Shown one piece after another: positions 9,317 to 28,624 of a DNA stretch of 31,592 nucleotides (positions are counted from its first letter, which is position 1; every line of letters begins with the position of its first letter). The translations under genes were made by a program, and so were the position numbers. The stretch covers positions 1 through 31,592 of the IMG/VR virus record IMGVR_UViG_3300020180_000087; one strand, 5' to 3'. A model generated the notes under the pieces. It made no database searches and was not told the origin of the DNA. It saw nothing but the letters and a program-made list of their open reading frames with translations. This DNA comes from a virus.

Positions 9317-9742
9317 ATGTCGACGGAGCTTCAAAAAAATCTAGCTAGACAAATAGTCAAAAATTTGAAACGTGAAAAGCCACAGAATAAACGTGAGCTT
9401 CTTGTTTCCTCTGGCTACGCTTTGAAATCTGCTATGTCGGTTCCACAAAAAATAATTGAACAGATTGGAGTTGTTGAAGCTCTTAATGAACTTGGTTTTT
9501 CCGAACAGGGTGCGAAGAGCGTTGTACAAGAAATTATGTACAACCCTGAAACTGATCCAAACGCTCGACTAAAAGCGACTGACCAAGTGTTTAAGGTTGA
9601 GGGTTCATACGCGCCAGAGAAAACAAGTGCATTAAATCTCATTGTGGAAGCTCGTTTGACTGACAATATTGAATTAAAGGCACTTGATGAGGAATACATG
9701 AGGCGTACTAGGGAAATTTATGCTAAAGGAAAACCAGACTAA
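9317..9742 (+). CDS. terS: Terminase small subunit (candidate)
   Basis: A 141-aa helical protein directly upstream of and overlapping the large terminase by 23 bp, the usual position. It opens with a helical segment, RELLVSSGYALKSAMSVPQKIIEQ, resembling the helix-turn-helix of small terminases that recognise the packaging site. DPNARLKATDQVFKVEGSYAPEKTS (positions about 88-112) is typical of phage small subunits, where a helix of the oligomerisation domain is followed by a flexible tail. The C-terminus (ALDEEYMRRTREIYAKGKPD) probably contacts the large subunit. Small terminases diverge strongly, so the name is based on pattern and place. Confidence 0.7.
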   Translation: MSTELQKNLARQIVKNLKREKPQNKRELLVSSGYALKSAMSVPQKIIEQIGVVEALNELGFSEQGAKSVVQEIMYNPETDPNARLKATDQVFKVEGSYAPEKTSALNLIVEARLTDNIELKALDEEYMRRTREIYAKGKPD

Positions 9743-11306
9743 TATTATAAAGTGGTTAAGAGATCATAATATAAAAAATGAAGGTGGAGTGTCGTTAGAC
9801 TTTTATGACCACTTGTTTCTATATGATATTTACGCAGATCAATCTCCGAAGTTAGTTTGCTATAAGGCGGCTCAGATTGGATTTTCTACGATGGCGATTC
9901 TAAAATCTTTGTGGCTCGCGAAGCATAAACATTTTGATTGCGTGTACACAATGCCAACAGCGAATGATGTTAAGGATTTCGTAGGTGGAAAGGTTAATCG
10001 CATTATAAATCAAAACCCTGTATTATTAGAGTATGTCAAGGATAAAGACTCAGTTGAACAAAAACAAGTCGGTGACAACATTATCTACTACCGAGGCACG
10101 TGGACAGAAAAAGCGGCTATCGCAGTCTCCAGTGACCTCAATATTCACGACGAAGAAGACCGTTCGAAACAAAGCGTTATCCAACAATATGCTTCCCGAC
10201 TCCAACACTCTAAATACAAATGGGAGTGGCATTTCTCGAATCCTTCTGTTGAAGGGAATGGAGTATCTCGGTATTGGAATAAAAGTGACCAAAAGCATTG
10301 GTTCATCAAATGTGGCGGTTGTGACAAGGAACAATTCCTTTCGTGGCCTAAAAGTATCAATATTGAACGAAGAGAGTTTGTTTGTAAGGAGTGTGGCAAA
10401 GGGTTATCACGAGAGGAGCGAAGAGTTGGTCGGTGGATTCAAAAGTATAAGAATCGTGAGTTCTCCGGCTACTGGATAAGTTTACTAATGGCTCCGTGGG
10501 TAACGGCCGATGAAATAATAAATTATCATGAAACAAAATCAGCAGAATACTTTGCAAACTTTGTCCTCGGTCTACCGTATGTTGGCGAAGGAAACCAAGT
10601 CACTCCTGATATTATTTATAGGAATTGTAATAGCGATACTAATAATCAGGAGCGAGTCGTCATCGGTTGCGATAGTGGACTCAAAAAACATTATGTGCTC
10701 GGCAACAAAGATGGATTGTTCTACGCGGGAGTAACGCATACGTGGGAAACTATAGAAAAGCTCTTGGGGCAGTATGAAAGGTCAATAGCAGTCATTGACG
10801 CATTACCAGACCTCACAGAACCTCGCCGGTTGCGTGAGAAGTATCCGGGTCGAGTATTCCTATGTCACTACGCTAGAGATCGCAAAACCTATCAGATTAT
10901 TCGCTGGGGTTCAGGGCTCGAAGCTGGCAACGTAACAGTAGACCGTAATCGAGGCTTGCAAATGGTCATTGATGATTTTGCTAATAAGAAAATTCCACTT
11001 CAAGGTACGCAGGACGACTGGGAGGAATTTGAAAGTCATTTTGCTACACTTTATAAGGTTACAGAGTTAGACACGCTTGGTGTGCCACAAGCTAGGTGGG
11101 AAACCTCGAACGGTATGGATCATTTCGCACATGCAAGTTTGTACTGGCGCGTCGGCATGGACAAATTCCGCAACGATGGTGGTAAGATATTCACTGGTGA
11201 GCCAAACGAGTATCGTGTATCAAGTCCTATCGTGAGTGATTCGATGCCTTACAAGCCAAAGTTTGATTTACCAGAACGTGAGTTAGAAGATTGGAGAACA
11301 GTATGA
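9720..11306 (+). CDS. terL: Terminase large subunit, GpA-like
   Basis: A 528-aa packaging motor of the lambda-gpA type. The ATPase domain shows a deviant Walker A, KAAQIGFST (49-57), and Walker B with VSSDLNIHDEED (136-147, with the catalytic acidic residues). A zinc ribbon typical of GpA proteins is present with CGGC (198-201) and CKEC (222-225). The RNase H-like nuclease domain includes VVIGCDSG (Asp 318), VIDALPD (Asp 360) and MDHFAHA near the C-terminus. The enzyme cuts concatemeric DNA and pumps it through the portal. It lies between the small subunit and the portal gene. No Walker A Lys-Thr is seen in the usual GK[ST] form, as is often true for gpA relatives. Confidence 0.9.
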   Translation: MLKENQTNIIKWLRDHNIKNEGGVSLDFYDHLFLYDIYADQSPKLVCYKAAQIGFSTMAILKSLWLAKHKHFDCVYTMPTANDVKDFVGGKVNRIINQNPVLLEYVKDKDSVEQKQVGDNIIYYRGTWTEKAAIAVSSDLNIHDEEDRSKQSVIQQYASRLQHSKYKWEWHFSNPSVEGNGVSRYWNKSDQKHWFIKCGGCDKEQFLSWPKSINIERREFVCKECGKGLSREERRVGRWIQKYKNREFSGYWISLLMAPWVTADEIINYHETKSAEYFANFVLGLPYVGEGNQVTPDIIYRNCNSDTNNQERVVIGCDSGLKKHYVLGNKDGLFYAGVTHTWETIEKLLGQYERSIAVIDALPDLTEPRRLREKYPGRVFLCHYARDRKTYQIIRWGSGLEAGNVTVDRNRGLQMVIDDFANKKIPLQGTQDDWEEFESHFATLYKVTELDTLGVPQARWETSNGMDHFAHASLYWRVGMDKFRNDGGKIFTGEPNEYRVSSPIVSDSMPYKPKFDLPERELEDWRTV

Positions 11307-11599: not shown

Positions 11600-13423
11600 A
11601 TGCCCTTAACATCAGGATATAACACACTTTCAGAGGACATAAATAAAGTTGGTAAGCCCGACGATTTAGTTTCAGCGTTGCTCCCTGAGCTTACTTTGGA
11701 GATGAGCGATGAGGAACTTATCGCTCTAAAGAAAAGCTGGATAAAGAACTGGGAGCCGTACAAAGTTGAAATAGAAAAGAAACAAAAGGTCAATGAAGAC
11801 TATTGGCTCGGACAGCAGTTTAATCCAAACAAGAGTAGTGACAATGAACGCCCCCTTGTTGATAATCTTATTTTTGAATCATTAGAAACATTTTTGCCTA
11901 TTGCTACTAGAGCGAAAGCAGAGCCATTAGTTGAGTCTGACAATACAGAGGAGGGCAACGCACTAGCAGACAAGGTTCGCAAAATGATTTTGTATGTTGC
12001 TGATAACTTGTCATTCAATCTAAAAATGAAGCAAGTCGCCCGGTACTGGGCGCTTCATTTGCTTGGCGTTATAAAAGTTGGCTGGAGTGTAGTTGAAAAT
12101 GATATTACATGCAAAGCGATTCGTGCTTCAAAACTTGTCCTTGATACAAACTCTACAATTGACGGTTGCCAATACGATGGCTACTACATAGGAGAATACC
12201 TCGATGATATGGCAAGTGATTTGGTATTAAGATTCCCAGAGAAAGCTGAATTTATTAAGGACAAAGTAAAGGACAATATGGGTACAAAAGTGTCCTATAT
12301 CATGTGGACTACTAATGAATATGTTTTTTGGACACTTGATAACGAGGTACTTGGTAAGAACAAAAATCCTCATTGGAATTATGATTCAGAAGAAGAACAA
12401 CCTATTACTGACGAATTTGGACAGCAAACAATGCAGACCGTTCCTATTAAGGGCAACAATCACTTCAATTCTCCGCAAATGCCGTATGTTTTCCTGTCTG
12501 TTTTCAATCTCGGTAAACAACCACATGACGACACGAACCTAATACAGCAGAATCTACCACTTCAAGACCTTGTGAATAAGCGTCTGGCGCAGATAGACAT
12601 GAACGCAGACAATGCAAACAACGGTATAGCCTTGTCCGGCGATGCGTTTACTGAAGAACAGGCCATGAAAGCGGCACATAAGCGACGTAAGGGTGCAGCC
12701 TTTTGGGTCCCAACAGGCGATGTCAATGCTGCGATTAAGGAATTACCCGCACAGCCGTTACCTAATTTTATATACGAATCATTACTTGATTATAAAAACT
12801 CACTCCGTGATTTGTTTGGAGTGCGTGGTTCTACTCCTCAGGGAACAATCAGGGAGCAGACGCTCGGTGGAAAGGAAATTATTAAGGGTCAAGACGCAGA
12901 CCGTATTGGTGGAGGTGTATCAACTTATTTAGAGCAGTTTTCAGATCGCGTCTTTAATTGGTTCGTTCAGCTTATGTATGTCTACTACGATGAGCCTCAT
13001 GCGGCTTCTGTTGTAGGGGTCGAGCGAGCAAAGGAATACATAACTCTTGTCAATTCGGAGTTCACCTCGAAACTCACGATTGGGGTAAAGGAAGGCTCAA
13101 TGGTCCCTCACGACCCAGCTAGCCAACGTGGTGAGGCAGTTGAATTGTGGGCACAACAAGGCATTGACCCTATTACGTTCTTTACACGCCTTGAGTTTCC
13201 TAATCCTAGAGAAGCAGCGAAGCAGTTGTATCTCTGGCAAGCAGACCCGATACAGCTCTTTCCTGACTTGTTAGCAGAGCAACAGGCACAGCAGGCACAG
13301 CAGATGCAACAGCAACAAGTCATGCAACAGGAACAGTTAGGACAAGACCAGAATCTTGCGGAGGAAGAGCAAGACCGAGAGCTTGAAAAGGTCGAATTTG
13401 CAAATTTAGTAAAACAACCATGA
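11600..13423 (+). CDS. P22-like portal protein
   Basis: A 607-aa protein with the features of P22-type portals. After an acidic start there is a helical segment (KKSWIKNWEPYKVEIEKKQK), then NEDYWLGQQFNPNKSSDNERPLVDNLIFESLETF near residues 65-98, a motif widely seen in this family. A beta-rich wing follows, then a long core helix region (about 370-420) and a C-terminus rich in Gln (about 555-585). The portal forms the dodecameric channel through which DNA enters and leaves the capsid. It is directly followed by a small gene with an ATGA overlap. Length suits podovirus and P22-type portals, which are longer than siphovirus ones. Confidence 0.85.
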   Translation: MPLTSGYNTLSEDINKVGKPDDLVSALLPELTLEMSDEELIALKKSWIKNWEPYKVEIEKKQKVNEDYWLGQQFNPNKSSDNERPLVDNLIFESLETFLPIATRAKAEPLVESDNTEEGNALADKVRKMILYVADNLSFNLKMKQVARYWALHLLGVIKVGWSVVENDITCKAIRASKLVLDTNSTIDGCQYDGYYIGEYLDDMASDLVLRFPEKAEFIKDKVKDNMGTKVSYIMWTTNEYVFWTLDNEVLGKNKNPHWNYDSEEEQPITDEFGQQTMQTVPIKGNNHFNSPQMPYVFLSVFNLGKQPHDDTNLIQQNLPLQDLVNKRLAQIDMNADNANNGIALSGDAFTEEQAMKAAHKRRKGAAFWVPTGDVNAAIKELPAQPLPNFIYESLLDYKNSLRDLFGVRGSTPQGTIREQTLGGKEIIKGQDADRIGGGVSTYLEQFSDRVFNWFVQLMYVYYDEPHAASVVGVERAKEYITLVNSEFTSKLTIGVKEGSMVPHDPASQRGEAVELWAQQGIDPITFFTRLEFPNPREAAKQLYLWQADPIQLFPDLLAEQQAQQAQQMQQQQVMQQEQLGQDQNLAEEEQDRELEKVEFANLVKQP

Positions 13424-14567: not shown

Positions 14568-15620
14568 ATGGCAGCATTAGGAACCCGCGTAACGACTCTG
14601 ACTCAGAGTAAATTGGTACCAAAGTTGGTGGATTCAATCTTAGGCTCAAACGTTTTCGCTTCACGTATGCTCTCAAGAGCAGCAAAATTCAGTGGTGAAA
14701 GAATTAAATTCCCAGTAAAGTATGCAAAAAATATAACTGGTACTTCATTTGCAGGTTTTGATACATTCTCAACCGCCGCAACTGACAATCGTGTGAATCT
14801 TGAATTTGTACCAAAGTTTTATCAGATGACTGTCGCTCTTCCCCTCGATGAGCTTTCAGGTAACGCAACAGAGGAAAAAGTACTTGACTTGGCTAAAATT
14901 GAAATGTCTTCAACTGCGCAAGATATGGCAGACGATATTGGTAATTTATTTTACGGCGCAGGCACAGGAAATGGAGGTAAAGATTTTCTTGGGCTAGAGG
15001 CAATCGTTGATGACGGAACAAACGCCGGAACATACGGAACACTCTCTCGAACAACTTATCCAACACTAAAATCAACAGTTACAGCATCGTCAGGTACTTT
15101 GAGCCTTGCAAAGATGTCCACGCTTTATAACGCAGCGGCATCTGGTTCACAGACTCCTACTTTAGGTCTTTGTAACGAAATAATCTTTGCTCTGTATGAA
15201 TCACTATTAGCACCACAGGAAAGAATCTCAAAGTCTGTGTCTATGATGAAAGGTGATCCGGGACGAGGTTTGAATTCAGGTTCTGGTTTAATTGGTGGTA
15301 CTGGATTTACAGGTCTTTTCTACAAAGGTTTTCCAATTCTTGCAGATGAGAAATGTACTTCAGGTGTTCTTTACTTCATTAACGAAGATTTTATCAACTG
15401 GCACGCTTTGCCTGTTGCTATGACTTCACCTGCGAAGTACCGATCACAAGACATTGAAGGTAACGATTACTCAGAAGTCGAAGGTCTTGGCTTCTCATGG
15501 AGTGATTGGATTAAGCCTACAAATTCAGCGGCTATCGTTGGCCACATGTATCTTGGAGGTGAACTTATCTCTCAGAATCCAAAAAGGCATGCAAAGTTGA
15601 CGGGCGTGACTTCTGTATAA
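14568..15620 (+). CDS. Major capsid protein, HK97-like fold
   Basis: A 350-aa coat protein in the position after portal and scaffold. The pattern agrees with HK97-type coat proteins: an N-terminal helix (LVPKLVDSILGSNVFASRML), E-loop-like strand region (GERIKFPVKYAKNITGTSFAG at about 42-64), VALPLDELSGN, a long spine-helix area (KVLDLAKIEMSSTAQDMADDIGNLFYG at about 103-130), and the A-domain with YKGFPILADEKC. No N-terminal delta domain or protease is fused, so the scaffold is separate. Folding may be helped by the phage GroES. The start follows an A-rich leader (TTTATAAAATAAA) without a Shine-Dalgarno sequence. Confidence 0.85.
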   Translation: MAALGTRVTTLTQSKLVPKLVDSILGSNVFASRMLSRAAKFSGERIKFPVKYAKNITGTSFAGFDTFSTAATDNRVNLEFVPKFYQMTVALPLDELSGNATEEKVLDLAKIEMSSTAQDMADDIGNLFYGAGTGNGGKDFLGLEAIVDDGTNAGTYGTLSRTTYPTLKSTVTASSGTLSLAKMSTLYNAAASGSQTPTLGLCNEIIFALYESLLAPQERISKSVSMMKGDPGRGLNSGSGLIGGTGFTGLFYKGFPILADEKCTSGVLYFINEDFINWHALPVAMTSPAKYRSQDIEGNDYSEVEGLGFSWSDWIKPTNSAAIVGHMYLGGELISQNPKRHAKLTGVTSV

Positions 15621-18606: not shown

Positions 18607-19293
18607 ATGGCAATTATAGATAATTTAATTTCATACTGGAAACTAGACGAATCATCGGGTAACGCCGCTGATTCTCACGGTTCTAATACTCTGACAAATA
18701 ATAACACCACCCCTTTTGTGGCTGGAAAAATAAACAATGCGGCAGATTTGGAGAGAACATCTAGCCAAGATTTTTCAAGAGCTAGTCCAACTGGAACAAG
18801 ATTTACTGGTAGTTTCTCTTTATCAATTTGGGTTAATACTGAAAGTCTTACTGGAGATATGGGGATTTTAGGAGACAATGACCGTAGTGCACCGAAGGGT
18901 TATATGTTGCGTTATGTTACCGCATCAAACCAACTCCAGTTTATATATTCAAACGCGGGGACTGATTACTCCACGGTAAAAGCGGCAATGCTTACAAACG
19001 CCACATGGGTACACATTGTTGGAACTCACAATGCCGCTACCGACACGGATGTTCTATATGTAAACGGGACTGCTCAAACAACAAATACAAGTCGAACGGT
19101 AGACCCAGAGGCGTCTGCTATTGATTTCAAAATTGGTGATATAAATACTGACCAATTTGATGGTTTAGTAGATGAAGCTGGCGTTTGGGGTAAGGCATTG
19201 ACCGCCGCAGAAGTTACTTCGCTCTATAACGGAGGAGCTGGATTGGCTTATCCATTCCTTATTAGTAGCAGTAGTTTCTTCGCATTTTTCTAA
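18607..19293 (+). CDS. LamG/concanavalin-like receptor-binding protein
   Basis: A 228-aa protein with a laminin-G-like jelly roll. Recognisable pieces are NLISYWKLDESSGNAADSHG (6-25), FSLSIWVN, TWVHIVGTHNAATDTDVLYVNG (about 137-158), FDGLVDEAGVWGKALTAAEV (about 183-202) and SLYNGGAG. These are standard for LamG_3 domains that bind sugars. In phages the domain occurs in tail proteins that contact cell-surface polysaccharide. It sits 6 nt after the fiber gene. The hydrophobic end (FLISSSSFFAFF) is unusual. Catalytic residues are not apparent, so binding rather than cleavage is likely. Confidence 0.8.
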   Translation: MAIIDNLISYWKLDESSGNAADSHGSNTLTNNNTTPFVAGKINNAADLERTSSQDFSRASPTGTRFTGSFSLSIWVNTESLTGDMGILGDNDRSAPKGYMLRYVTASNQLQFIYSNAGTDYSTVKAAMLTNATWVHIVGTHNAATDTDVLYVNGTAQTTNTSRTVDPEASAIDFKIGDINTDQFDGLVDEAGVWGKALTAAEVTSLYNGGAGLAYPFLISSSSFFAFF

Positions 19294-22176: not shown

Positions 22177-23679
22177 ATGGCAAAAACAGATAAAAGAAGT
22201 TTTAGGGACAGAGTTAAGGGTGCTGTCGGCGGTGCGGTAAGTGCAATAAAAAGAGCTGTTACAAAAAGTTCAGGAAATATTCCAACACAATATAGAACTC
22301 CGACAATCAAGTCATTGTCAACTCGTCCTGCGACAGACTTTATGACTCCTGCTCCTGTTACACCTCGCCGTCGTCAGTTTGGTAGTAATCAGTCAGCAAA
22401 CGCGCTTGGTGCGATAGGAGGTCGGGTTGTTTCTGCTCCACGTCCTGCGACAGACTTTATGACTCCTGCTCCTGTTACACCTCGCCGTCCTGCGACAGAC
22501 TTTATGACTCCTGCTCCTGTTACACCTCGCCGTCCTGCGACAGACTTTATGACTCCTGCTCCTGTTACACCTCGTCCTCGTCAGTTTGGTAGTAATCAGT
22601 CAGCAAACGCGCTTGGTGCGATAGGAGGTCGGGTTGTTTCTGCTCCACGTCCCGCGACAGATTTTATGACACCTCGCCCTCCTGAACGACCTACTGATAC
22701 TCCTTCAACTTTCACTGAAGAAAGGGGCTCTCCTGCTACTGAAAGAACAGAATCCTATACCTTGCCCGGTAGTAGTAACCCTATTAAGCCTAGTCAATTG
22801 TCAGAACAGCAGAGTGCTAATATCGCGCAACTGAAAACTCTTGGTGAACAACTGCAAGCGGCACAAGAGGCTCTTGCAACTGCCGGAACAGAAGAAGAAA
22901 GAAATGTAGCTGGACAAGAAGAACAAAGAGCTGATAGAGAATATGCTCAGGCTGAAAGGGCTTACGAAAGACTTTTGCGAGAATCAGAGGGTGAGGTTCA
23001 AGCTCAAACAGGAATCGACGCTTTATCTGCACAAAGTGCGGCAATAAACGCACAATACAGATCGGAGTCAGCAGATGTAAAAAATCAGCCTATTCCTGCA
23101 GGGTTCATTACCGGACAGGATAAGGCTCTATATGAAAAAGCTCAGACTGGATTAGGCACTCTAGCCACACAAAAAATCCCACTAGAGCAACAACTATCGC
23201 GTGAACAAGCAAAACGTCAGTCTGCTATTGATGTCTCAAAACAAAGACTAACTTCGTTAGAGAACAAACGAAGCCGATATGATTCTAGACGTAAAGAAAG
23301 AAAGTCTGATTTGAAAGATAAACAAGACAGAGAGCGAGATGAACGAAAGTATCAAGAAGACGTGCGACGCTATGGTCTTGATTATGCACAAAACGAGAGG
23401 AGAATAAATCAAGCTAATAGAGAGAAAACAACTCCTAAATTCCGAGTTTCATCGTCTGATATTGACCAAGGGACATCTGCTCTTGAACAGAGTCGAGGTT
23501 CTGATGGATTTGTTGATACCGCTCTTTATACGAATCTATATCGTGACTGGATTGACGGCGGCGGTTCGAGAAGCGAATTTCTAAAATACTTTCCGTCAAA
23601 CTCTTACCTTAATCCGAATGACCCAACAGTCCCAGCATATTTAAGACCAACAGGTAGCGGTGGAAATTGGAGGGGATAA
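22177..23679 (+). CDS. Repeat-containing internal virion (ejection-type) protein
   Basis: A 500-aa protein with a clear order. Residues 1-30 are a basic amphipathic helix (RDRVKGAVGGAVSAIKRAV). Residues 50-166 contain repeats: RPATDFMTPAPVTPR four times plus a partial fifth, and a 23-residue QFGSNQSANALGAIGG unit twice. A long charged coiled-coil area follows (about 205-430, with many Gln/Glu/Arg). The end is GGSRSEFLKYFPSNSYLNPNDPTVPAYL. It stands just before the giant ejection protein, as internal virion proteins do. Membrane activity from the N-terminal helix is possible. I infer an ejected or core protein; there is no enzyme signature. Confidence 0.55.
   Translation: MAKTDKRSFRDRVKGAVGGAVSAIKRAVTKSSGNIPTQYRTPTIKSLSTRPATDFMTPAPVTPRRRQFGSNQSANALGAIGGRVVSAPRPATDFMTPAPVTPRRPATDFMTPAPVTPRRPATDFMTPAPVTPRPRQFGSNQSANALGAIGGRVVSAPRPATDFMTPRPPERPTDTPSTFTEERGSPATERTESYTLPGSSNPIKPSQLSEQQSANIAQLKTLGEQLQAAQEALATAGTEEERNVAGQEEQRADREYAQAERAYERLLRESEGEVQAQTGIDALSAQSAAINAQYRSESADVKNQPIPAGFITGQDKALYEKAQTGLGTLATQKIPLEQQLSREQAKRQSAIDVSKQRLTSLENKRSRYDSRRKERKSDLKDKQDRERDERKYQEDVRRYGLDYAQNERRINQANREKTTPKFRVSSSDIDQGTSALEQSRGSDGFVDTALYTNLYRDWIDGGGSRSEFLKYFPSNSYLNPNDPTVPAYLRPTGSGGNWRG
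22324..22674 (+). repeat. Near-identical tandem DNA repeats inside the internal virion gene
   Basis: A 45-bp unit occurs at 22324-22368, 22441-22485, 22486-22530 and 22531-22575, and a diverged 27-bp piece at 22648-22674. A 69-bp unit occurs at 22372-22440 and 22579-22647. Copies look identical or nearly so in DNA, not only in protein, so the expansion is recent. The unit length is a multiple of three, so copy number can change without frameshift. Confidence 0.9.
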
Positions 23680-23683
23680 AACT

Positions 23684-26600
23684 ATGGGTATATTTGACAA
23701 TACATTAGGAGGACAGACCAAACAAAAGCCAAAAGGTGGTGGTATATTTGCCAATACCATTTCAAGACAACGGCCACAACAGCAATACCACGCCTCTGTG
23801 GACTCACGTGGCACTTCTTTAGGCTTCTCTGACGAGCGAGATACGTCTGGTCGTCCTTTCTTTGCCTATCGTAATCCGGGGGACACTTCTACTACTACGG
23901 ACTATAAGCGTGTGGCGACGCAGTTTGACCCTAGGATAGCTACAACAACACCTCGTGATAGTTTCTACAATCCTCGTGATCCTCGTATCGGTGACAGTGA
24001 CAAGAGAACCCAAATAGACCACGAAATGGCCTTGGCTCTTTCAGGCTCTAATAACCCTGCTAACTTGCGCACTGTACCGAACGCTCAAAATAGAGATTCA
24101 GGTATCATCCGTGACTTACAAGGCAACGTTATAGCAGGCAGAAATAGTCTATTCCAAGCACAAAGCGACCTTGCTATCGAAAAGAAAACACCGCTACCTT
24201 TCACTGGTAGTCGGTATGGGCAATTCGCCCTTGAAGCTAAACAGGCACAAGAAGAGGCAAGGAAAGCGCAAAGTTTTGGTGGGTTGTTTAAGAATACGTT
24301 ATCTGACTTGAAAAGTCGCTTTACTAATCTTGGACAAAAAGTAAGTGAAGCTGTACCGGGCGTTCGTGCGATAGCTGATATGGGAGTACAAGGAAGTTTT
24401 GAACCCATTATAAAACATGCTTCTACAATTGGTACAAAGGAACATCAGGAAAGACTCCTAGGAAAAAAAGACCACCCAATTAAAAATAAGGAAGGGAAAA
24501 CACTTGGGTACACTTATTCCCCAAAAAACCAGATGAACTTTGCTCTTGGTTTTGTCAATCCTGTTGGAGGCGAAGGTACTGTACTTGATAAAATTGCCAA
24601 AGAAAAATCTTTTTCTGTCATAAAAAACTTACTCAAAAAAATTGGAGACTATAGTGATGACGTTGTAGAGAAACTTGTTAGAACAGATACTGTTGACGAA
24701 GTAACGTCAATACTCCGTAGTAACATAACAATCCGACAGGGAACGACAAATTGGAGTAAGCTTCAGAAAGAAAACCCTGATTTGTTCGATACTGGCATAC
24801 TAAGAAAAAACCAGAAACCACAAAACGCGAATGGTGTTATACCAGTGGAAGTTCATACCGCACAGACAAAGTGGCAAAACTACGGTCAAGACAGCGAGGT
24901 ATCGGCATCAATCTTATACGGAAAGGATAAAAAGTATGGTGGTTATATTAAGAAAGACGGAGACCCTGTTCGTGATTCTAGTGGCAATATCTTAGACGAC
25001 ATTTATGACGAGGCTACAGGACGATATATCGAGCCAACAGTATCTAATAAACACCTAAGAGATAACCTACTAGATTCATTCTCTACAAAGGAAGGAAAGC
25101 AATATCTCAAAGAGGTAGTAAATGCCTTACCAAAAAATTCAGATGGAACAATAACTGCATATCGAATCGGGGCGATTAGCAAGGAAGGGACGCAAAGCTA
25201 TACTCTAAGCGAGGGAATGGCAAAAACATTCTCTAATCAAGGCACAGTTATTTTACCAGCGGGAACTCCTGGGTTGCCAAAAGGGGGTTACAAAGATTTT
25301 GGAGCACTCCCTGCCAATACAGTTAAAATAAAACCAGAAGGAATAGTGGCGTGGAGTCCTTACGATGCTGAAATACTTGTTGAATCAAAGTATGTAAAAA
25401 CCACCTCCCAACTCCGTACAGAGTACGCAGACGAGCTAGCTAAATCAAAGAGCGCTAACCTACCTAAAGCTAATTCAGCCCAACAAGCAGTCAAAGACGG
25501 TCTCACAGAGGAGCAGTTTATGAAGGGGCAGGGAACTCCTAAAGATGGACTTACAGAATACAAAGGTGCCGTGGATGCTGTTAAAAAAGATTTTCCAAAC
25601 GAAGCAATAGATTTAGATTCTCCCAGTGGGGTTAATGATTTTATGGAGTTACTTGATAATTCGGAAACAGCGGACAATTTAGGTATTTCGACTGAGATAC
25701 TTACGGAAAAATTATTGAATAGAGTTACTAAATTAAAAGAAGCTGGGTCTACAAAACTTGTAAATAAATTAGGTGAGAAATTGACCAGCATTAACCAAAA
25801 TTACATTGACAGGATTAAGTCTGACGGTGTTCGTATTTCGGAAAATTCAGGAAGCGAAAAAGTCAAACTATTGAGAGATATTTATGGTGGCACGATACCT
25901 CGTGAAATCAAAATATATCGTGGGACTAATCTAATGAACGCACCGTTAAGGGTTGGCGATTATGTTACCCCAAGCAAATCTCTTGCGAGAGGTTATGTAG
26001 ATGGAGAATTTGGAAATGTTGCCAATTATACGGTCAAATCAGAGGATTTGATTTTAATGAGAGTCAATAGTGGAGGCATTGATTCCGTTGAAATGGTTTA
26101 TCTGCCAAAAGCACAACTTGCCGACCTCCAAATCAAAACCACCTCCCAACTCCGTGCAGACTACCAAACAGCCAAAGGTCTATCAAAGCCTTCTCCAGAT
26201 TTTATAGGGGAACCCAAGAAAAGCGGTAAGCAATTAGCAAAAGAGGAAGTTGACAACATGTTTGCTGAACGTGAGCGGAAGGTCGCTAGGGAATATGTAG
26301 AAAGGAAAACCACCAATCGCGCTGAATACGACCCTGGGTATTTTGCTCGTAAAGAAACTCTTGAAAACAATCTCAAGACGACAAGACAAATAGAAAAACA
26401 AACCAAGCCACCACAAACAAGCCAGCAAAGTAGTCAGACCATTCCAAACTCAAAGGCTTCAGTAGGTAGAACCATGTCAGAAGGAGAGGCCAAGTCAATA
26501 GAAATACAAGCGAAGCAAGCAATAGATATAATGGCTGGAGGAAAGATTCCTGATGGGGTTTCATTGCATAAGATTATATCAGATACAGTTACTCCTGTTA

Positions 26601-28624
26601 CAAAGAAAGTTAATTTTATTGACACTTTTCTTCGGACTCCTGACCGAGTTATGAATAAAATCGGCTTTGGCAAAGAGGCAGTTGAACTTCGACGAGCAAT
26701 GGACTCTTACTGGAAGGAGTTGCCTAAGAACATCGCCAAACACACTGAATGGGCTAAACGTGTACCGAAAGAAAGCAACGAACGTATATTTAAATACCTA
26801 GACGGTCAAGCTATTGACCTACGGCCAGATGAGAAACAAGTGGCGCTGGAGATAAGAGCGTGGTTAGAACAGTGGGCGGATCGTTTGAAGTTGCCAAAAT
26901 CACAGCGTGTTTCTGAGTATATTACCCGTCTTTTTGATGAGGAACTTTTGGCTAAGGAATTTCCTGAAGAACTTGCCAAGATAATTGCCGATAAAGTCCC
27001 GGGTTCTGTCTACAATCCTTTTATGCTTCGTAGGCTTGGTGCTAAGGGCTACAAACAAGACACTTGGGCGGCGCTCGATGCTTATGTTAAGCGTGCCACT
27101 CGCAAGGTACACATGGATCCTGTGCTGGAGAAGATACAGGCGAAAACTGGTCAGTCTTTGGAAATGGCGAATATCGAAAAATCGCAGTTTAAATATGTCC
27201 AAAGATATGTAGAAAATATCAACATGCGACCATCTGAAATAGAGGAGTCTATTGATAATTTTCTTAAGTCATCTCCATTGGGTTACAAATTCGGACAGCG
27301 CCCCGTGGCTTCTATCAGTCAGTTTTTGAGGCGAATATCTTTTCGTGCTGGATTAGGTCTTAATCTGGGTTCTGCTTTACGTAATCTTTCGCAAGGGGCA
27401 AATACTTACTCTGAACTCGGTGAAAAATATACAACTCTTGGTTATGTTGGACTCTTTAAAAAGGGTGCAAAAGAAGAGCTTGAAAGAGAGGGGGTTTTAA
27501 ATGCAGGGTTTATTCAAGACCGTGTGCTTTCTTCGACAGCAAAAATAATAGAGAGAATGGATAAGGGACTTTTTGCGATGTTTCAAGTCGCAGAATATAT
27601 CAACCGAGGTGCGGCTTATTTTGGAGCTAAGTCTAAAGCTCTGTCTGCGGGAAAATCAATAGACGAAGCTATTGAATACGCCAAAGGTATCGTTCGTAAG
27701 ACACAATTTTCTTTTGATTCTGTAGATACTCCTGTCGGTATGTCTAGTAACATCGCAAAGACCGTTATGCAATTTCAGACGTTTACAATGAAACAAATGG
27801 AATTTTTGGGTGAAAAAGCAAAAGGTTCGGTAACAGGAAAAGAAAAAGTGAAAAATGTAATTGGCTTATTAAGATACGCTGCGGCAGGAACAGTGTTTGT
27901 GTACACAATCGGAAGGGCATTTGGAATGGAGCCAAGAGAGCTAATCCCTATTTATAGGATAGGTGCACCACCGGCGTTAGTCCCTATAGTTGAGACAGGA
28001 AAGGCCGCACTAGATACACCTGACAAGTACGGCAACCAGCGCGAACTTAAAACAAAGGCGATAGATGTCGGAAAATCATTTTTAGGATATGTCCCCGCTG
28101 GTTCTCAAATCAAAAAGTCTTTCTTGGGTGATCAAGCCGTCAGACAAGGTGGCTCATTCGACAAGGGTGGCAATCTTCAATTCAAAGTAGGAGAAACTAC
28201 GGGGCAAAAAATACAGGCAAGACTGTTTGGCAAGTACGCAGGTCCACAATCAGACAAGTATTTTAACAGAGCAGAGGAAGCTCAGAAGTTAAATAAAGAA
28301 GCAGAGAGGACATACGACGAACTTCTTGCGCTTCCTAAATCAGAAGGCGACCATCGCTTTACACAGTTAGAAAAAGACAATCCGAAATTAGCTGATAAGC
28401 TTAAGACTATCGGCCGTGACCGTAAACTTGGTATCACTGAGAAAGATAGGGAGCTTCGTGCGTTTGGCGTGACGAATGGTGACAGGGCACAGCGTGTTCT
28501 TGACTACATATTGGAGTTGCCGAGCGAAGCAGACCAAGACAAGCTCTACGATGAATTAGTAAAGAAGAAAATCATCACGTCAGTTGTAGCGAAACAGATT
28601 AAAGAGTTAATGCAATCAAGATGA
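23684..28624 (+). CDS. Giant polyvalent ejection protein with two ART-like domains
   Basis: A 1646-aa protein from ATG 23684, which has GGAGGGG (23669-23675) 8 nt upstream; the GTG at 23660 lies inside the preceding gene. In order: three G-[IL]-F-x-N-T copies near the N-terminus; an HNH-like segment TQIDHEMALALSGSNNPANL (about 109-128); two ADP-ribosyltransferase-like segments (about 488-580 and 740-826), each ending KTTSQLR; a helical linker; and a long helical region (about 970-1470) with TQFSFDSVDTPVGMSSNIAK, resembling domains of large polyvalent phage proteins. Giant multi-domain proteins before the lysis genes in podophages are usually packed in the virion and injected. The ART-like enzymes would then act in the host. 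Domain names are inferred from motifs only. Confidence 0.65.
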   Translation: MGIFDNTLGGQTKQKPKGGGIFANTISRQRPQQQYHASVDSRGTSLGFSDERDTSGRPFFAYRNPGDTSTTTDYKRVATQFDPRIATTTPRDSFYNPRDPRIGDSDKRTQIDHEMALALSGSNNPANLRTVPNAQNRDSGIIRDLQGNVIAGRNSLFQAQSDLAIEKKTPLPFTGSRYGQFALEAKQAQEEARKAQSFGGLFKNTLSDLKSRFTNLGQKVSEAVPGVRAIADMGVQGSFEPIIKHASTIGTKEHQERLLGKKDHPIKNKEGKTLGYTYSPKNQMNFALGFVNPVGGEGTVLDKIAKEKSFSVIKNLLKKIGDYSDDVVEKLVRTDTVDEVTSILRSNITIRQGTTNWSKLQKENPDLFDTGILRKNQKPQNANGVIPVEVHTAQTKWQNYGQDSEVSASILYGKDKKYGGYIKKDGDPVRDSSGNILDDIYDEATGRYIEPTVSNKHLRDNLLDSFSTKEGKQYLKEVVNALPKNSDGTITAYRIGAISKEGTQSYTLSEGMAKTFSNQGTVILPAGTPGLPKGGYKDFGALPANTVKIKPEGIVAWSPYDAEILVESKYVKTTSQLRTEYADELAKSKSANLPKANSAQQAVKDGLTEEQFMKGQGTPKDGLTEYKGAVDAVKKDFPNEAIDLDSPSGVNDFMELLDNSETADNLGISTEILTEKLLNRVTKLKEAGSTKLVNKLGEKLTSINQNYIDRIKSDGVRISENSGSEKVKLLRDIYGGTIPREIKIYRGTNLMNAPLRVGDYVTPSKSLARGYVDGEFGNVANYTVKSEDLILMRVNSGGIDSVEMVYLPKAQLADLQIKTTSQLRADYQTAKGLSKPSPDFIGEPKKSGKQLAKEEVDNMFAERERKVAREYVERKTTNRAEYDPGYFARKETLENNLKTTRQIEKQTKPPQTSQQSSQTIPNSKASVGRTMSEGEAKSIEIQAKQAIDIMAGGKIPDGVSLHKIISDTVTPVTKKVNFIDTFLRTPDRVMNKIGFGKEAVELRRAMDSYWKELPKNIAKHTEWAKRVPKESNERIFKYLDGQAIDLRPDEKQVALEIRAWLEQWADRLKLPKSQRVSEYITRLFDEELLAKEFPEELAKIIADKVPGSVYNPFMLRRLGAKGYKQDTWAALDAYVKRATRKVHMDPVLEKIQAKTGQSLEMANIEKSQFKYVQRYVENINMRPSEIEESIDNFLKSSPLGYKFGQRPVASISQFLRRISFRAGLGLNLGSALRNLSQGANTYSELGEKYTTLGYVGLFKKGAKEELEREGVLNAGFIQDRVLSSTAKIIERMDKGLFAMFQVAEYINRGAAYFGAKSKALSAGKSIDEAIEYAKGIVRKTQFSFDSVDTPVGMSSNIAKTVMQFQTFTMKQMEFLGEKAKGSVTGKEKVKNVIGLLRYAAAGTVFVYTIGRAFGMEPRELIPIYRIGAPPALVPIVETGKAALDTPDKYGNQRELKTKAIDVGKSFLGYVPAGSQIKKSFLGDQAVRQGGSFDKGGNLQFKVGETTGQKIQARLFGKYAGPQSDKYFNRAEEAQKLNKEAERTYDELLALPKSEGDHRFTQLEKDNPKLADKLKTIGRDRKLGITEKDRELRAFGVTNGDRAQRVLDYILELPSEADQDKLYDELVKKKIITSVVAKQIKELMQSR

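Follow-up and report, generated by a model that had tools for sequence, protein, structure and literature searches.

DNA-conserved tags mark cassette borders in a replaceable payload slot of a giant polyvalent-type phage protein

The stretch of DNA analysed here (the window, 31,592 nucleotides) is a 31.6-kb virus record of IMG/VR, IMGVR_UViG_3300020180_000087. It carries a gene for a giant protein of 1,646 residues, the frame of which is already open from a GTG at 23660, upstream of the ATG taken as its start (Table 1). The giant gene lies downstream of those for terminase (9720-11306), portal (11600-13423), major head (14568-15620) and tail proteins (19304 onward), which places it among the late genes. 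In the C-terminal part of the protein, residues 1290-1390 match the tail-700/PLxRFG model of NCBIfam (E=6e-13, below the curated cut-off), and this part also weakly matches the DarB-like antirestriction family of PHROG (E=5.7e-5); these matches place the giant protein with the polyvalent-type proteins. Together with the late-gene position, the PLxRFG match supports the view, taken in an earlier note made from the sequence alone, that this is a polyvalent-type and probably ejected protein. The HNH-like stretch which that note had placed near the N-terminus is indeed present at residues 111-128 (IDHEMALALSGSNNPANL), with a PHROG HNH endonuclease profile reaching E=0.15 only. By motif, the candidate effector domains of the polypeptide are this HNH-like segment and two segments resembling ADP-ribosyltransferases (ARTs); profiles do not confirm them. 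The full protein and its C-terminal part gave no match when searched against phage records. Elsewhere in the window, a 117-residue ORF at 898-1251, with a cysteine motif and an HTH-like end, resembles by eye the N-terminal part of an IS1595-type transposase (no Pfam match).

Table 1. Features of the giant gene, in window positions
Feature	Position	Strand	Basis
Giant polyvalent-type protein, 1,646 aa	23684..28624	+	ORF from ATG
HNH-like segment IDHEMALALSGSNNPANL, residues 111-128	24014..24067	+	motif
ART-like segment 1, residues 353-571; R494, S505/S509, E563	24740..25396	+	motif, L024 homologue
Payload slot, the stretch wholly replaced in sister L002	24741..26209	+	blastn, junction alignment
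C-tag 1, KTTSQLRTEY	25397..25426	+	repeat; tags in other phages
N-tag SAQQAVKDGLTEEQFMKGQGTP; SD-like AGAGGAG before in-frame ATG at 25520	25475..25540	+	tag alignment, blastn, SD energies
Cargo 2: helical stretch, then ART-like segment 2; R746, S764/S766, E803	25541..26134	+	motif
C-tag 2, KTTSQLRADY	26135..26164	+	repeat; tags in other phages
PLxRFG/tail-700-like region of the constant C-terminal part, residues 1290-1390	27551..27853	+	profile

The two ART-like segments show the residue order of R-S-E ARTs (Alt/VIP2 clade, PF03496). The motifs of segment 1 are AYRIG (residues 492-496), SYTLSEGMAK (505-514) and DAEILV (561-566), those of segment 2 IYRGT (744-748), TPSKSLARGY (762-771) and SVEMVYL (801-807), and each set is followed by KTTSQLRxxY, which reads KTTSQLRTEY after segment 1 and KTTSQLRADY after segment 2. 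The ORF, both motif sets, the KTTSQLRxxY peptides and the 21-nt repeat that encodes part of them were thus all located where they had been described. A strict R-S-E pattern, drawn up post hoc with the sequence already in view, matches only these two places in the protein and appears in 1 of 5,000 shuffles of it. Outside an 11-residue tag the two segments are unrelated, so that neither is a copy of the other and the duplication of one ART is rejected.

Segment 1 has a homologue in L024 (IMGVR_UViG_3300006224_000005; L numbers designate phage loci), which is 57% identical overall and 79% identical in the core, with R, S and E conserved. This phage reads TGA as glycine: when it is translated with code 25, long-ORF coverage is 0.96, up from 0.60, and 84 TGA codons lie in frame. 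Code 25 is used by Gracilibacteria, Absconditabacteria and some of their phages (PMC10746230), and one type of cargo found in the window therefore also occurs in a phage with this code. The identities between segment 1 and its homologue at the three codon positions, 0.66/0.78/0.42, point to purifying selection on the segment 1 protein, which speaks against the suggestion that the first copy had decayed. In L024 the homologue is followed by a second ART that matches XopAI (1.2e-7), PF03496 (0.012) and an RNA polymerase ADP-ribosylase (0.023), the tandem ART-like domains lying within one protein of 1,168 residues. For the window itself code 25 was rejected, since 7 of its 29 long ORFs stop at TGA and long-ORF coverage is hardly altered.

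A reading of both segments as unrelated non-ART domains, with R, S and E spaced by chance, is rather unlikely. It gains from the profile searches, in which the segments matched nothing in Pfam, PHROG, NCBIfam or PDB sequences, neither the PF03496 model nor that of ART-PolyVal (PF18760, with H-Y-D residues) included, and from AlphaFold, whose pLDDT of 41 (segment 1 with its one homologue) and 38 (cargo 2 alone) yielded no usable fold; a loose R-S-E pattern is moreover present in 974 of 5,000 shuffled proteins (19%), but the same loose pattern recovers the T4-type Mod proteins, the strict one is rare among shuffles even if defined post hoc, R, S and E are kept in L024 beside a profile-supported ART, and ART-PolyVal occupies comparable cassettes in other phages (see below). 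The segments are like T4 Alt, ModA and ModB, phage effectors acting on host proteins, in the order of R, S and E at motif level. They differ from them in showing no detectable similarity: hhalign gave no signal between the segments and T4 ModA/ModB, the ART-PolyVal cargo or the L024 ART, and as it gave none between genuine ART-PolyVal and Mod proteins either, this null is uninformative. Searches of phage records with both segments gave no match, and no homologue of cargo 2 was found. The assignment of both segments as true ARTs is a probable one.

No other exact direct repeat of the gene reaches the length of the 21-nt one (25397-25417 and 26135-26155; 93% identity over 30 nt), compared with a longest repeat of 18 nt and a mean of 12 in 200 shuffles. 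From the recurrence of this 21-nt repeat in other phages, we read it as a C-tag, the border on the right-hand side of a cassette. The border on the left, an N-tag (SAQQAVKDGLTEEQFMKGQGTP) overlooked in the earlier note, stands ahead of segment 2; within it, at 25499-25522, an SD-like AGAGGAG precedes an in-frame ATG. The tags showed no hairpin and nothing att-like or otherwise recognisable as a site of recombination, and among the genes scanned none was recognised as encoding a recombinase. The N-tag gave no match against phage records or plasmids, its DNA pattern none in species genomes, and the exact tag peptide none in the literature.

Outside the window, 12 phage contigs with hardly any further DNA in common carry large proteins in which the tags frame divergent cargo. 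An N-tag and C-tag pair is present in L003, L004 (twice, in tandem), L005, L010, L013, L014, L015, L016, L017/L018 and L023, and the N-tag alone in two contigs that break off within the cassette, L020 and L021; the tagged contigs come from ten IMG metagenome datasets and one GenBank MAG, and several stop within the cassette. In an all-against-all blastn of the cassette-bearing loci, similarity is found almost only in the two tags, which are 74-100% identical, mostly above 85%; the exceptions are the sister phage L002 described below, the pair L020 and L021, and 89 bp over which L010 matches both the window and L002. Where two tag copies agree in the residue, they also agree in the codon at 75% of positions (N-tag) and 80% (C-tag), against 38% and 36% expected from each locus's own codon usage over loci of 36-52% GC; as the pairs are not independent, codon identity measures shared DNA and carries no probability. 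ART-type cargo is the rule between these tags. ART-PolyVal is matched above the Pfam cut-off in the cassettes of L004, L014, L016 and L017, and below it in L003, L005 and L015; the window's segments differ from this family in lacking a match and in having R-S-E instead of H-Y-D. The profile search found no ART match in the L023 cargo, and inspection by eye no ART motif in that of L013, which indicates that more than one fold can stand between the tags.

Replacement of the payload is directly visible in one sister pair. L002 (IMGVR_UViG_3300020203_000084) matches the window in three long blocks of 99.3%, 94.8% and 98.4% identity, and the slot, with both segments and all tags, is swapped in it for about 650 unrelated residues. 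One junction coincides exactly with the beginning of segment 1, the other lies 15 residues past C-tag 2, and the replacement has about 24% identity to proteins of two other phage records. L002 has a degenerate N-tag at the left edge only and no C-tag, so this swap need not have used the tags; it may have used other homology. Of the duplicated or exchanged module envisaged earlier, exchange is thus what the sister swap and the tags support, and duplication is what the unrelated segments contradict. Two further places differ between these phages: positions 18614-19276, in a gene for a laminin-G-like protein (18607-19293), are a second hypervariable place that cannot be aligned with L002, and a 49-nt repeat (RPATDFMTPAPVTPRR), present five times at 22324-22696 in the gene preceding the giant one, is apparently arranged differently in L002.

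Polyvalent proteins are mosaic, and we know of no described route by which domains move between them. Based on the above data, we propose, with a probability of about 0.6, that the window encodes a polyvalent-type protein, probably an ejected one, and that recombination at conserved tags refills its payload slot. The giant protein of this tailed phage would be part of the virion and be ejected together with the DNA. Its central slot would be framed by a constant N-terminal part (HNH-like) and a constant C-terminal part (PLxRFG-like), and would at present hold two ART-like domains of differing kinds, with the two short tags as cassette borders. When phages share one cell, the tags would probably supply short stretches of homology (about 54-66 bp and 30-40 bp) for recombination, which would replace an effector domain in frame and leave the rest of the protein untouched. 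The cargo would probably modify host proteins with NAD+ early in infection, like T4 Alt, an analogy that for the window's domains holds at motif level. Recombination between diverged sequences by lambda Red has been proposed as a source of phage mosaicism (PMC2327257). The tags are conserved as DNA across unrelated phages with varied cargo between them, and the near-identity of cassette borders in about twelve phages that are otherwise unrelated suggests an exchange of injected effector domains between phages by way of these borders; the identity of the tags could also reflect recent spread rather than active recombination.

The tags might instead be the protein-level edges of one expanding ART-PolyVal subfamily, with a first helix (EEQFxKGQGTP-YHG) and a last strand (IKTTSQLRAEY) conserved by fold or function and a DNA identity that stems from recent common descent of the whole cassette. 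The profile match does set in directly after the edge of the N-tag, at residue 18 of the L004 cassette, and stop at the start of the C-tag, and the ART cargos of different phages are recognisable as distant homologues (about 25-36% protein identity) on chassis proteins that are mostly unrelated. We nevertheless regard this as unlikely, because the tags also frame cargo with no recognised ART-PolyVal features (cargo 2 of the window, L023 and, by eye, L013), because they are alike as DNA where the cargo DNA cannot be aligned, and because the first 141 nt of the cassette are identical in L020 and L021, whose upstream sequences diverge right outside this stretch.

A captured ribosome-binding site and start codon would offer another origin for the N-tag, the cassettes being stand-alone effector genes fused in frame. 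This is quite improbable as a full account, although it is compatible with refilling of the slot at conserved tags, and the internal ATG or GTG may still start translation. An SD-like stretch (-7.7 to -12.1 kcal/mol) stands ahead of the M/V codon in all 12 N-tag copies scored, this codon being ATG, or GTG in every V copy; the product would begin at the edge of the ART-PolyVal domain; and the cassette ends the protein in L010 and L014 and forms a short ORF of its own in L013. Against this, the Glu-Glu codons GAG GAG make an SD by themselves, and simulations from codon usage reach the observed energy in 4-27% of cases for most copies and 0.8% for one, so that codon usage alone accounts for much of the signal; the N-tag copies are not independent, and in the window the product would include the entire C-terminal part. 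The start signal may be either a relic or a working internal start. Joining of unrelated phages at repeated tags during assembly is very improbable, for although L020, L021 and the JACCVY contig stop inside the cassette, the frame continues uninterrupted across the tags in contigs of ten metagenome datasets and of one MAG, the tags measure only about 30-66 bp, and the JACCVY contig has the terminal overlap expected of a circular genome.

Refilling of a payload slot at conserved tags has relatives among systems that are already known, polyvalent proteins and polymorphic toxins. Polyvalent proteins of phages and conjugative elements (Iyer et al. 2017, PMC5512222) are likewise giant multidomain proteins of mobile elements, with ART-type and other effectors, a PLxRFG/DarB-like C-terminal region and a predicted delivery with the DNA. 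Their ARTs are described there as H-Y-D, R-S-E ARTs (Alt clade) being placed outside genuine polyvalent proteins, whereas the ART-like segments of the window carry R-S-E; in the portions of that paper available, the words 'linker' and 'shuffling' do not occur and no border tags were seen. Polymorphic toxin systems (PMC3482391) also carry variable toxin domains on a constant delivery chassis, swapped by recombination with cassettes, and an exchangeable effector on a constant chassis is what the comparisons of the window with L002 and of L020 with L021 reveal; unlike those systems, the present case concerns a phage protein, with cargo in mid-protein in the window and borders conserved across unrelated chassis. 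Shuffling of fragments within phage proteins (PMC10684548) is a similar domain-level mosaicism; ejection, internal virion proteins and polyvalent proteins did not come up in a word search of that paper. Word searches of the literature open without subscription, in the portions available, found no description of border tags conserved as DNA.

Tags whose DNA is conserved across differing chassis and cargo would offer a concrete, testable route for domain movement. They would also serve as a search handle, the cargo between them being candidate injected effectors, including in phages of poorly known hosts. A dedicated exchange system shared by uncultivated phages, in which in-frame, DNA-conserved tags with a start signal would drop cassettes into different chassis from a common pool of host-takeover domains, is a possible, if doubtful, extension; the phages differ in base composition and probably in host. 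Among species genomes, the only match to the cassette profile was a circular phage-like contig binned in a Blastocatellia MAG; as 296 further genomes from that phylum gave none, this bin does not identify a host. That contig (L017/L018, JACCVY010000269.1) is a 36.7-kb circular phage-like genome with a 127-bp terminal overlap, and its tagged cassette spans the start of the record. In L013, the short ORF with both tags and non-ART-like cargo lies at 10319-10738 of the reverse complement, and an adjoining ORF, without tags, has a similar first stretch. The 1,421-residue protein of L003 contains, by eye, an HNH-like stretch (YSLEHIVPVKSGGDTGTMNL) in its C-terminal part, at the end opposite to that of the window's HNH-like segment.
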